Shown piece after piece: positions 9,278 to 13,350 of a stretch of 44,862 nucleotides of DNA; the first letter of the stretch is position 1, and each line of letters begins with the position of its first letter. Source of the DNA: Candidatus Tepidiaquacellales bacterium OLB5 (GTDB lineage Bacteria; Bacteroidota; Ignavibacteria; Tepidaquicellales; OLB5); contig LLZO01000045.1 of the NCBI GenBank assembly GCA_001567545.1, positions 1-44,862 of the forward strand, given 5' to 3'. The translations under genes were made by a program, and so were the position numbers. Under the pieces are notes generated by a model. That model searched no databases and was not told the origin of the DNA. It was given only the letters and a program-made list of their open reading frames with translations.

Positions 9278-10225
9278 ATGAAAAACGCTCTCTTAGCTTT
9301 ATACGTATTTTTATTATTAATTATCACACCGTTTACATTCAGCGGTCAGGTTTATCTTGACCTTATTAAGGAAGTAAAATTTTCAACTGAACCAAGAGAT
9401 ATTATACTTAATGAAAATGCCTATATTATCACAGCAGGTTCGGTTTATTCTGTTTCGATCACAGACCCGTATAATTTAAACAATACAGAAATTAAAGCTG
9501 TCAGCGGAGCTAAAAGTATAGCTTTTATCGGGCATTATGCTTATGTGCTTTACCCCGGTGCCAATATTGTTGTGTATGATTTTTCCAAATCACCTGTACA
9601 GAAAAAAACTGAAATTATTACTAACGGCAGAATTCAGAAAATAGCTATTAACAACGGGTATCTGTATGCTGTAAATGAAGATGCCGGTATGCAGGTTTAT
9701 GATGTAAACATTGCAGATTTTCCGGTGTATAAGAATACACAGGTTATTCCATTTAATGCCAGCGGTATTTTTGTAACAAATACCCGGGCTTTTGTGACAA
9801 GTACAGGCGGGCATTTATCTATTATCGATATTACCGATAAATCAAAGCTTCCTATTGTTGGTTCATATAACTCCGGAACCAGCTTTTTTGAGCCATTTGT
9901 TGACGGCAACATTGCTTACGTTCCGCAGGGCTCAACCGGAGTGCAGGTGCTGGATATCAGCAAACTGCCTACACCGGAATGGCAGTTTAATCTGTTCGGC
10001 AGGAAAAATTCACACCAGGTAGTTGCTTCTAATTTCTATGTTTGGGTAGCTGATGATAAATCTGTTGAAGGATTTTACAACGATGCACCGAAATCATATT
10101 ATTTTGCAGGTAATTTCAAGTTCAAAGATAAGGTTAACCGCATTGCTGTTGTTGACGGTAAGTATATTTACGTCTGCACTAAAGATAAATATTTAAAGAT
10201 ACTGAAGATCAGTTACAGGTATTAG
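9278..10225 (+). CDS. Secreted LVIVD-repeat beta-propeller protein
   Basis: 315 residues with a signal peptide (about 1-23, hydrophobic core ALYVFLLLIITPF). The body consists of recurring units of roughly 40 residues that end in phrases such as NIVVYDFS, GMQVYDVN, HLSIIDITD and GVQVLDIS, alternating with AYV/YAV strands. This is the LVIVD-type propeller repeat found in many Bacteroidota surface proteins. Function unknown; probably an extracytoplasmic binding or scaffold protein. It has no recognisable T9SS tail and no enzyme motif, and stands alone between two terminator/repeat-marked borders. Confidence 0.8.
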   Translation: MKNALLALYVFLLLIITPFTFSGQVYLDLIKEVKFSTEPRDIILNENAYIITAGSVYSVSITDPYNLNNTEIKAVSGAKSIAFIGHYAYVLYPGANIVVYDFSKSPVQKKTEIITNGRIQKIAINNGYLYAVNEDAGMQVYDVNIADFPVYKNTQVIPFNASGIFVTNTRAFVTSTGGHLSIIDITDKSKLPIVGSYNSGTSFFEPFVDGNIAYVPQGSTGVQVLDISKLPTPEWQFNLFGRKNSHQVVASNFYVWVADDKSVEGFYNDAPKSYYFAGNFKFKDKVNRIAVVDGKYIYVCTKDKYLKILKISYRY

Positions 10226-10262
10226 AATGATTGCGGATTTAGGATTGATATTTGCGGATTTA
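10226..10262. repeat. GCGG-rich repeat words, relatives of those flanking the four-helix-bundle gene
   Basis: Right after the stop of the propeller gene come ATGATTGCGGATTTAGG and ATTGATATTTGCGGATTT. The words TTGCGGATTT and ATGATTGCGG are shared with 6779-6818. No four-helix-bundle gene is present here. The site forms the boundary to the AT-rich defence-like gene pair at 10313-12387. Confidence 0.45.
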
Positions 10263-10312: not shown

Positions 10313-11095
10313 TTAGCAATAATATTCGTTTATCGATTTTTTAGAAAGATAGCTATAAAATCCTTTATGTTCTGGTTTAATTAAATTATGAATATTTATA
10401 TCTTTGAATACTTTATATTTATTAAAAAATGGTTTGAATTCTAGGATACCCCAACTTTCACCTAAATAAAATAATAATAATATCTCATCTGTACTTAACT
10501 GAGAAAATAATAAATCAAAATAGAATTGTTTGTTTATATCATTAAGTTCAATATGTTTATCAATATATTTCATGATACTTTTAAAATTATTAAAGAAATC
10601 ATTTATATATTTTCCTTTTTGCTCTGTAAAAATTCTAAATAATTCTTTAATTAATAGAATTTCGGAATTTAAATCATTCGGATTTGTACTGCCATAAGGA
10701 TAGCTATTGTATAATTCAATTCTTAACAATTTTATTGCAAAATAGCCATAATTTTTTTCTGAATTTTTATCAACAACTACCGTATTTTCAATTAATTTTT
10801 GTCGAATGTTCAATAAATTAAAAAATACAGTTTCAAATCTTTGGATTTTTAATTCTTTTCTTGTTAGGTCCAGCTCATCCTTTTGCATTAAATAATTTAA
10901 TATTAAAAGTATAATACCGGAAAAAGCAATAAACACTGCAGAAGTCCCTCCCCACCAATCGCCAATTAATGCTAAATCAGATAGCTGATGTTTACCAATT
11001 AGTATTTTAGGAAGTAATGGACTAAAAATACCAATAATTGCAAGGAGAATAGCGGTATATAAAAGAAAATAATGCAGTTTATTTTTACTTTTCAT
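10313..11095 (-). CDS. Putative phage abortive-infection protein, AbiC family
   Basis: 260 residues. Two N-terminal membrane helices (about 9-30 and 48-68) enclose GDWWGGTSAVFIAFSG. They are followed by a charged helix QKDELDLTRKELKIQRFETVFFNLLNIRQKLIE, and a C-terminal helical part YIDKHIELNDINKQFYFDLLFSQLSTDEILLLFYLG...FKPFFNKYKVF. This order and these motifs are those of the putative AbiC-like abortive-infection family: a two-helix membrane anchor, an RFE-x-FF-x-LL block, then QLS-x-E-LLLFY. Members are linked to phage resistance by cell shutdown; mechanism unknown. Marked AT-richness relative to the neighbours suggests transfer. The preceding gene on the same strand ends 56 nt upstream. 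Confidence 0.82.
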   Translation of the reverse strand: MKSKNKLHYFLLYTAILLAIIGIFSPLLPKILIGKHQLSDLALIGDWWGGTSAVFIAFSGIILLILNYLMQKDELDLTRKELKIQRFETVFFNLLNIRQKLIENTVVVDKNSEKNYGYFAIKLLRIELYNSYPYGSTNPNDLNSEILLIKELFRIFTEQKGKYINDFFNNFKSIMKYIDKHIELNDINKQFYFDLLFSQLSTDEILLLFYLGESWGILEFKPFFNKYKVFKDINIHNLIKPEHKGFYSYLSKKSINEYYC

Positions 11096-11151
11096 AAATC
11101 TTTCTTAACCATTTATTATTCGTATTAATTTTTACGTTATTTACTCAAAAT

Positions 11152-12387
11152 TTATTTTCTTGGAACCCAAGTTAAATGAAAGTCAGAATGAAAATCTTCA
11201 GCTTTAATTTTTTTTCTTTTTCTGAAAGATGTATCAAGTTCAATATTTTTTGCATTAGATCCTGTTTCTATTCCTAAAATAGAACCATCCGTAAAAGTTA
11301 GTATCATAGCTTCACTTTCATGAACTCCTTTGATTGATTTTCTTTGACCAGTTTCCACATTAGCTACTTTTTTTCCGATCATAAATTTAGCTTTATTAAT
11401 AGAATAGTGTGGTTCAGGAGCTTTCACAATAATAGGAAGCCATTTTTTGGCTTCGTTTCTATTAAAAGCCATCTTCCCCTTAATTTTAAATTTTCTTTCT
11501 AAAATCCTCAAAAATTCCTTTAAACCTTTATACAGTAATTCTAAATCTTTACTAAATTTTTCGAATGCTCTAAATGGTAAAGCTTGTTTCCTTATTCCAT
11601 GAGTTGAGCTAACTCTTTGCTTTCTTAAAGTAGTGAAAAAACTATTAAAATTTTTAGATAGTTCTAATTCTGGAAAAACTTTTTTTAACATAAAAATTGT
11701 TTTTTCTTTTTCACCAGGATTTAAAACTAATTTTTGATTTAATTTTTCAGATAAAGCAATTAATGTATTTGAATCGATACCATCACGGAAATAACGGTTT
11801 AATTCTGCAAAAGCATCTTCATACCGGTGCGTATTTTGAGCAGAGGGAAATTTTGTTTCATCTAAATTGCCATATTTATAAATTTGTTTTCCAGTTACCT
11901 CTAATGCTATTCCATTAATATAGCTACATACTTCATAAATTTTACGTGTTATTAAAGAATCACCATGTTTCCATGAACCCTCTAAATAAACTTCTTTCCA
12001 CATATTAAATCTTTTATCTTGCTTAGCACTCCACAATGGTTTATTTATTAAAAAACCTGACCACTGTTTAATATGAGCTGGGGAATCTTTAAACAAATCT
12101 GGTAAAAAAGCCATTATGGCTAATTCACCATCTTGTAAAGCTCTATAACCAAATCTAACTTTAATATAATTATCCGTTTTTTTTTGTTTCTCAAGTTTCT
12201 TATAATATGAATCGGTGACAGTTACCTCTCCAGAAAAATAATCTGTTTTTACTATATATTTATCAGGTTCATCTCTGTAGGATGATAAGACTTGTTGTCT
12301 AAAATATCCTAAAAGTTGGTTTTCGATTTTAGTTTTCTTTTTATTATCCATAATTTCGCAAACTATATTGCTTTTAATGTCCTTCAC
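11152..12387 (-). CDS. Unrecognised 411-residue protein with HEPN-like R-x4-H motif, paired with AbiC-like gene
   Basis: Not assigned to a family. The start given is a GTG at 12387; an ATG at 12351 (MDNKKKTK, 399 residues) is equally possible. No signal or membrane helix is seen. Three blocks stand out. An N-terminal block (about 76-115) has FGYRALQDGELAIMAFLPDL and IKQWSGF. A helical middle (about 240-300) has LRKQRVSSTHG, where Arg258 and His263 form R-x4-H followed by a long charged helix, as in HEPN RNases. A C-terminal block has SEAMILTFTDGSILGIETGS. It has the same strand and AT-rich composition as the AbiC-like gene, suggesting a two-gene unit. A role as nuclease or sensor in phage defence is inference only. 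Confidence 0.6.
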   Translation of the reverse strand: MKDIKSNIVCEIMDNKKKTKIENQLLGYFRQQVLSSYRDEPDKYIVKTDYFSGEVTVTDSYYKKLEKQKKTDNYIKVRFGYRALQDGELAIMAFLPDLFKDSPAHIKQWSGFLINKPLWSAKQDKRFNMWKEVYLEGSWKHGDSLITRKIYEVCSYINGIALEVTGKQIYKYGNLDETKFPSAQNTHRYEDAFAELNRYFRDGIDSNTLIALSEKLNQKLVLNPGEKEKTIFMLKKVFPELELSKNFNSFFTTLRKQRVSSTHGIRKQALPFRAFEKFSKDLELLYKGLKEFLRILERKFKIKGKMAFNRNEAKKWLPIIVKAPEPHYSINKAKFMIGKKVANVETGQRKSIKGVHESEAMILTFTDGSILGIETGSNAKNIELDTSFRKRKKIKAEDFHSDFHLTWVPRK

Positions 12388-12454: not shown

Positions 12455-13174
12455 CTATACCTCCCCATACATTTTAATCACATTACCGGAATCAGATTTG
12501 CTCTCGTGGCATAAAATCAAACAGGTTTCTGCTATTTCCATTGGAGTTACCCATTTTGAAAAATCCTGGTTCTGCATGCTTTCCCTGTTTGCAGGAGTAT
12601 CAATTATACTCGGGATTATAGTATTAAAAGTAATATTAACATCTTTATACTCAGCTGCCAGCGTTTGCATTAAATTTACTACTCCTGCTTTGCTGAATGA
12701 ATAAGCAAACTTCCCTGCTGTAGTTTCAATAGCCGGCTTTGCGCCGATAGCTACTACCCTGCCGAAGTTATTAGCTTTAAAGAAACCAAGTACATGTTTT
12801 GTAAAATAAAATGTTGTATAAAAATTCAGCAATAGCTGCTTTTCGATCAGCTCTTTATCAGTATCTACAATCAACCTTTTGGGATGATACCCTCCAACAG
12901 TATTTATCAGGAAATCTATCCGTTTTTCCTGTTTAACAACATTTTCGCAGAATTCCTTCACTTCAGCTTCGTTGGAAGCATCACAAGGCAGCCCGTAACG
13001 CTTTGGCAGACCTTTGAATTCGGTTTCATCAGACTGCTCGAAGACCTTCATAAATTCAGGCATTGAACGGACAGGGATGTAAACCTTCATTCCATGTGCC
13101 GCAAAATGGTTGACTATTACCCTGCCTAATGCTCCCGTACCGCCTGTTACAATTGCTACTTTATTGTTGAACAT
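12455..13174 (-). CDS. Short-chain dehydrogenase/reductase (SDR) family oxidoreductase
   Basis: 239 residues from the ATG at 13174 (MFNNKVAIVTGG); an upstream in-frame start at 13201 runs into the palindrome cluster and is less likely. Classical SDR landmarks are present: the NAD(P)-binding TGGTGALGR near residues 9-17, an acidic PCDAS after strand 3, NTVGG (the NNAG position), and the catalytic YSFSK (Tyr-x3-Lys) with Thr/Ser upstream. The substrate cannot be told from sequence. It lies between the AT-rich pair and the repeat cluster, with no obvious operon partner. Confidence 0.88.
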   Translation of the reverse strand: MFNNKVAIVTGGTGALGRVIVNHFAAHGMKVYIPVRSMPEFMKVFEQSDETEFKGLPKRYGLPCDASNEAEVKEFCENVVKQEKRIDFLINTVGGYHPKRLIVDTDKELIEKQLLLNFYTTFYFTKHVLGFFKANNFGRVVAIGAKPAIETTAGKFAYSFSKAGVVNLMQTLAAEYKDVNITFNTIIPSIIDTPANRESMQNQDFSKWVTPMEIAETCLILCHESKSDSGNVIKMYGEV

Positions 13175-13198
13175 AATTAATACTTTTTTATTGTGTTG

Positions 13199-13350
13199 CA
13201 ACGACCTTTAGGTCGTGGAATAAATTACTTTTAAGTAAACGGCTTTAGCCGCTAATCCATTTTCTTTTTAGGGGCTTGCCCTAGGCATTTCTTTGGAGAA
13301 AGCCCCAAATTTATATCGTTTTAGGGTCCACGATCTGAAGGTCGTGGCTA
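13199..13350. repeat. REP/BIME-like cluster of palindromes
   Basis: A 150-nt non-coding stretch made of successive hairpins: ACGACC-TTTA-GGTCGT (13201-13216); TTACTT-TT-AAGTAA (13225-13238); CGGC-TTTA-GCCG (13240-13251); GGGGCTT (13271-13277) pairing with AAGCCCC (13300-13306) around an inner TGCC-CTA-GGCA; and CCACGATC-TGAA-GGTCGTGG (13328-13347). The outer hairpins share CGA(C/T)CT..AGGTCGTGG. This resembles the non-autonomous REP elements mobilised by Y1 (RAYT) transposases. No transposase gene is in the window. It lies in the intergenic space between the SDR gene and anmK. Confidence 0.7.

Follow-up and report, generated by a model that had tools for sequence, protein, structure and literature searches.

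Pfam labels the putAbiC family (PF16872) as putative abortive infection proteins, and a literature search found no tested member of it. The AbiC of PMC8649781 belongs to pfam14355 (Abi_C), which is a different family from PF16872. In HEPN proteins, the active-site motif has been described between helices 3 and 4, where helix 3 ends, and a polar N, D or H after its R is typical, not obligatory; fusions of AbiTii domains with HEPN domains occur in other proteins (PMC3710099). Hma-embedded candidates (HECs) were collected by guilt-by-embedding, and several of them were antiviral in assays (2026 survey, PMC12988326).

Here we describe two adjacent genes in the window, the whole 44,862-nt stretch of DNA that was analysed. 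The pair is a real, defence-like combination of an AbiC-type gene and a HEPN-like gene, and its putative function is most likely anti-phage defence. Our preferred reading, to which we give a probability of roughly 0.5, is a horizontally acquired two-gene cassette of the abortive-infection type, consisting of a HEPN-type RNase and an AbiC protein with two transmembrane (TM) helices.

The gene pair and its chromosomal site

The pair and its surroundings comprise the following features.

9278-10225, plus strand: right backbone gene, LVIVD-repeat propeller (PF08309), edge of the insertion site
10231-10262, no strand: two TTGCGGATTTA words, copies starting at 10231 and 10252, native, beside the propeller gene
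10313-11095, minus strand: AbiC-family (PF16872) membrane protein gene, 260 aa, ATG start
11096-11151, minus strand: intergenic gap of 56 nt, within one likely transcription unit
11152-12387, minus strand: partner gene, 411 aa, GTG start
12455-13201, minus strand: left backbone gene, SDR family (PF00106), edge of the insertion site

The preliminary description had reported two same-strand genes 56 nt apart, and the reading frames and gap are as described. The 411-aa gene comes first in the direction of transcription and the AbiC gene second, and from this layout they are likely to form one transcription unit. An in-frame ATG at codon 14 of the 411-aa frame (12348) is an alternative start that would give a 398-aa form; no obvious Shine-Dalgarno sequence was seen at the GTG or the ATG start of this gene, and the 56-nt gap contains no minus-strand terminator-like site. 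The pair is clearly richer in AT than the flanking genes, as had been noted (GC 0.24 and 0.28 against 0.37-0.39). The GC content was 0.235 in the AbiC gene and 0.283 in the partner gene, and 0.366, 0.386, 0.371 and 0.363 in the propeller gene, the SDR gene, AnmK and the whole window, respectively.

The same chromosomal site was compared in sister species. The SDR and propeller genes adjoin each other convergently at nine loci of sister species, in the same surrounding gene order, and a tenth contig stops just beyond the SDR gene. Seven of these loci have 31-141 nt between the two genes, and the 411-aa gene was found in none of 12 sister genomes. The gap measures 1909 nt in G307, where it contains an AAA ATPase gene followed by a gene for a DUF4276 protein (L062:6768-8583). 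The ATPase matched AAA_21 in Pfam and, in PADLOC, HEC-01A (105 bits) and AriA (103 bits), and the DUF4276 protein matched HEC-01B (29 bits). The defence-type context proposed earlier is borne out by this HEC-01-like pair. One small site therefore holds the AbiC pair here, another candidate defence pair in G307, and little or nothing in most sister species. Because most sister species have nothing at this site and one has a HEC-01-like pair there, we regard the AbiC pair as a swapped-in payload, probably a horizontally acquired anti-phage cassette. No integrase was found between the SDR and propeller genes of the window, and no target-site repeat stood out at the insertion.

We also observed a gap of 587 nt in G272. 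An ORF in the same intergenic spot (L061:7449-7840) resembles by eye a DUF559-type (Vsr-like) protein and is flanked by inverted CCCCTCCT repeats. As a side observation on G307, the SDR-propeller site is a small payload-swapping hotspot between convergent genes.

The GCGG-type words on the propeller side had been taken as a boundary of the unit. They are present, but ATCCGCAA-type words also adjoin the propeller gene of sister species in which the site is empty or otherwise filled (L060, L061, L066). Because of these counterparts at sites without the pair, the words were assigned to the backbone edge, outside the cassette, and were rejected as its boundary.

The rarity of the pair, its AT-rich composition and its absence from sister species would also be expected of a non-defence accessory or of decaying DNA without a current function. 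We consider this improbable, as both reading frames are intact, conserved motifs are retained, and the families and the site have a defence-like context.

The AbiC-family protein and its HEPN-like partner

Two features were located within the 260-aa protein.

10880-11083, minus strand: two predicted transmembrane stretches, residues ~5-35 and ~47-72, from hydropathy
10385-10612, minus strand: putAbiC domain match, residues 162-237, including QLSTDEILLLFY, from hmmscan against Pfam

The assignment to the AbiC family was confirmed, with a hmmscan score of 35.5 bits for PF16872 against a cut-off of 22. The two membrane helices and the motifs quoted earlier (e.g. RFETVFFNLL) were likewise found; transmembrane stretches were called at a hydropathy above 1.4 over 19-residue windows. 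The protein thus has two N-terminal TM helices followed by a cytosolic helical domain, and a SQLS..E.LLLFY block is conserved in the alignment of AbiC homologues. It matched phrog_8999 with an E-value of 9e-25. An AF2 model built with 12 homologues was all-helical with a mean pLDDT of 81, and no PDB fold matched it at E<=0.001. Of 66 class genomes, 12 had AbiC genes by the family profile, a count that includes the genome of the window.

Three features were located within the 411-aa protein.

11488-12309, minus strand: HEPN-like family core, residues ~27-300, from a profile of five homologues
11599-11616, minus strand: RVSSTH (R258-x4-H263), putative RNase active site of HEPN type, with both R and H invariant in six members
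11167-11415, minus strand: accessory domain at the C-terminus, residues 325-407, with homologues that are stand-alone proteins of ~97 aa

The 411-aa protein had no match above cut-off in Pfam, PADLOC or NCBIfam; L32e, Gp30.7 and dihydropteroate synthase were dropped as identities, their matches being sub-threshold. A search of 396 phylum and 119 related genomes returned the window only. The N-terminal 322 residues gave only chance matches over 391 class genomes, and the ones that were inspected proved to be GTPases or other proteins of housekeeping function. A match in G843 was rejected as chance, the protein being AnmK. The N-terminal 322 residues had one weak tblastn match on Paraburkholderia plasmids (E 6e-3), in a collinear alignment that was extended by an Acinetobacter homologue. 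A profile from the Paraburkholderia and Acinetobacter homologues then detected further members in genomes of the window's phylum. When the window protein was left out, the profile of five homologues gave it a score of 75 bits (E 2e-22, residues 27-268); L097, a sixth homologue, scored 48 bits, and the best unrelated ORF or shuffle no more than 7.3 bits. By these profile matches, residues ~27-300 belong to a small uncharacterised family, of which six other members were found. In the 134 Enterobacter-class genomes searched, the core profile had no match.

The six-member alignment contains only nine invariant columns, two of which are R258 and H263. L097, which lies outside this alignment, reads by eye LQRLRTKLVAH in the corresponding region, just past its profile match. 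Since Rx4-5H sits at the HEPN active-site position in all seven family members (RTKLVAH in the seventh), the 411-aa protein is probably a HEPN-type RNase. The residue after the motif R is V in the window protein, which thus lacks the polar N, D or H, and is I, T, Q, Q, S and T in its relatives. We describe the protein as HEPN-like and not as a HEPN member, because it has no significant HEPN profile match in Pfam and two relatives have only sub-threshold Pfam matches over the motif region (HEPN_Cthe2314 at 14.4 bits and HEPN at 11.7 bits). The structure model, of low confidence with a mean pLDDT of 38.7, places a helix at residues 243-259, the motif at 258-263 and another helix at 272-300. HEPN membership is suggested by the motif, the predicted helices and the sub-threshold matches. 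The earlier view of the AbiC partner as a soluble protein was supported, and this partner is nuclease-like. We also observed two divergent members of this family in G254 (L137:6560-8179 and L099:7698-9014), which have different N-termini and no AbiC.

The last 83 residues of the 411-aa protein match a stand-alone "hypothetical protein" of ~97 aa on 12 enterobacterial plasmids, with 40-47% identity and E-values of ~1e-11 for the better matches. An alignment search with this domain detected a stand-alone homologue in an Enterobacter prophage as well. A DpnII/MboI-type nuclease gene lies within 5 kb of the stand-alone homologue in L002, L003, L005, L007 and L035 (PF18742 was tested for L003 and L035; L034 is the same prophage). 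Nucleases of this type occur in 366 of 72,556 plasmids. Because several of the plasmids are related, we treat this proximity as a lead and not as a statistic. The nuclease genes at these five loci are often annotated "malate dehydrogenase", or as hypothetical. The domain was not found in 28 AbiC loci or in the six other loci of the partner family. As the HEPN-like core is joined to a domain found elsewhere in the company of a DNase, the 411-aa protein looks like a fusion of this core with an imported C-terminal domain, which may act as a sensor, a regulator or a targeting module. If the preferred reading is right, a mobile accessory domain of ~85 aa would be common to RNase-type and DNase-type contexts across phyla.

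Neighbours of AbiC-family genes and the pairing

The preliminary description had proposed a fixed pairing of the two proteins as a sensor/effector defence unit. When 28 other AbiC loci (342 kb) were searched by profile, no 411-family protein came up, nor did AbiC at the other six loci of the 411 family (76 kb). Viral and genome contigs were also scanned for peptide patterns of AbiC, its relatives and the 411-aa protein, without a match; the alignment of the C-terminal domain alone gave one, in the Enterobacter prophage. No clear defence context was seen for the six other members of the partner family. The exact pairing was seen once, in the window, and a demonstrated fixed two-component system is not supported. 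Of the proposed unit, acquisition and a defence-type context were upheld, and the fixed pairing was not. What recurs is AbiC with a HEPN-type or other defence partner; the exact pair does not.

On an Exiguobacterium plasmid, a gene annotated as HEPN (motif RSSVYH) lies 29 nt upstream of an AbiC gene; this AbiC is a family member at 83 bits by profile, and Pfam matched neither of the two proteins. A Swt1-like HEPN gene (RNNLAH; 26.4 bits against the Pfam cut-off of 27.5) lies 253 nt upstream of AbiC in G078. HEPN-type neighbours in G019 and G039 were recognised by motif only, by eye; neighbour calls by eye are sequence readings. Of the 28 AbiC loci, a minority have such a HEPN neighbour: two on the basis of annotation or a near-threshold Pfam match, and two more as read by eye. 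Other AbiC-family genes are preceded by AbiTii at 34 nt (G108, L029:7220-9017, 138.6 bits) or by a Fic gene at 25 nt (G379), or directly followed by a KAP NTPase gene, on a Paenibacillus plasmid (Pfam, L106:4935-7448) and in G453 (by eye, L129:5313-8217). AbiC also lies within or beside restriction operons in G258 and G046 (Pfam) and in G466, G436, G101 and G397 (by eye). AbiC-family genes thus sit beside other defence genes. The view of AbiC as a single-gene system is too simple, because many homologues directly adjoin HEPN, AbiTii, Fic, KAP-NTPase or restriction genes.

Some of these loci deserve a separate remark. AbiTii and AbiC of G108 are a possible two-gene Abi unit, and the direct succession of AbiC and a KAP-type P-loop NTPase, seen in two bacteria unrelated to each other, may be a recurrent AbiC-KAP pair. 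G397 is from the window's genus; its AbiC gene, with a GC content of 0.27 within a region of 0.38, ends an operon that by eye resembles an adenine methylase and a type II restriction endonuclease (L131:4864-8693).

The distribution bears on a second explanation, in which two independent, stand-alone defence genes, one of the AbiC type and one of the HEPN type, were captured at the same spot of integration. The two families do not retain each other as partners (0/28 and 0/6), each occurs without the other in the same phylum, and the site takes unrelated payloads. The 56-nt spacing on one strand, the matching unusual AT content and the HEPN-type genes directly upstream of AbiC in unrelated bacteria argue against independent capture. 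We consider it rather unlikely, though close behind the preferred reading because the exact pair is unique in our sample.

The arrangement could also be toxin-antitoxin-like, with the HEPN RNase as a toxin that the membrane AbiC restrains until infection disturbs the membrane. HEPN toxins are commonly encoded by two-gene systems (PMC3710099), and the toxin-first order and short gap would suit such a pair. However, AbiC genes occur alone or with non-HEPN partners. HEPN antitoxins are usually small soluble proteins, and to our knowledge no AbiC relative neutralises a toxin; both points count against this explanation, to which we give little credence.

Proposed function and comparison with known systems

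If the pair is an abortive-infection-type cassette, the two proteins may be physical partners. The sensor of infection would be AbiC at the membrane, the 411-aa protein through its non-HEPN parts, or both. RNA of the cell or of the phage would then be cut by the HEPN-type RNase (R258-x4-H263), with AbiC serving to anchor the RNase, to regulate or trigger it, or to add a membrane effect as a second effector. The 411-aa protein would consist of an N-terminal alpha/beta portion, the HEPN-type RNase and the imported C-terminal accessory domain. More tentatively, AbiC two-TM proteins may be an interchangeable membrane module for defence nucleases (HEPN, AbiTii, Fic, KAP-linked and restriction). The window would then hold one combination, with an unrecognised HEPN-like family and a captured C-terminal domain that also occurs near DpnII/MboI-type DNases. 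If the cassette reading is right, it would define an uncharacterised HEPN-like family whose candidate active site is clear, point to a small chromosomal site at which candidate defence genes are exchanged as payloads, and give the membrane family known only as "putative abortive infection" a role that can be tested.

The 260-aa protein resembles putAbiC (PF16872) in its score above the curated cut-off, its two N-terminal TM helices and its SQLS/LLFY block, and differs in being paired with a HEPN-like protein. AbiP of PADLOC is a weak match (21.4 bits, E 5e-5), partial in coverage at residues 60-210 only, and putAbiC and phrog_8999 match better. The 411-aa protein may resemble the HEPN superfamily RNases (PMC3710099) in that, by the low-confidence model, Rx4-5H would end a long helix, with another helix after it and variable N-terminal domains before it, but has no HEPN Pfam match, a V after the R and an extra C-terminal domain that is elsewhere a separate protein. 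The AbiTii (PF18864) arrangement of G108 has the same layout as the window, whereas the 411-aa partner does not match the AbiTii domain. The two-gene PADLOC candidate HEC-01 is comparable in that a HEC-01A/B-like pair fills the identical chromosomal spot in G307 (L062), although its AAA ATPase and DUF4276 protein are unrelated in sequence to the window pair.
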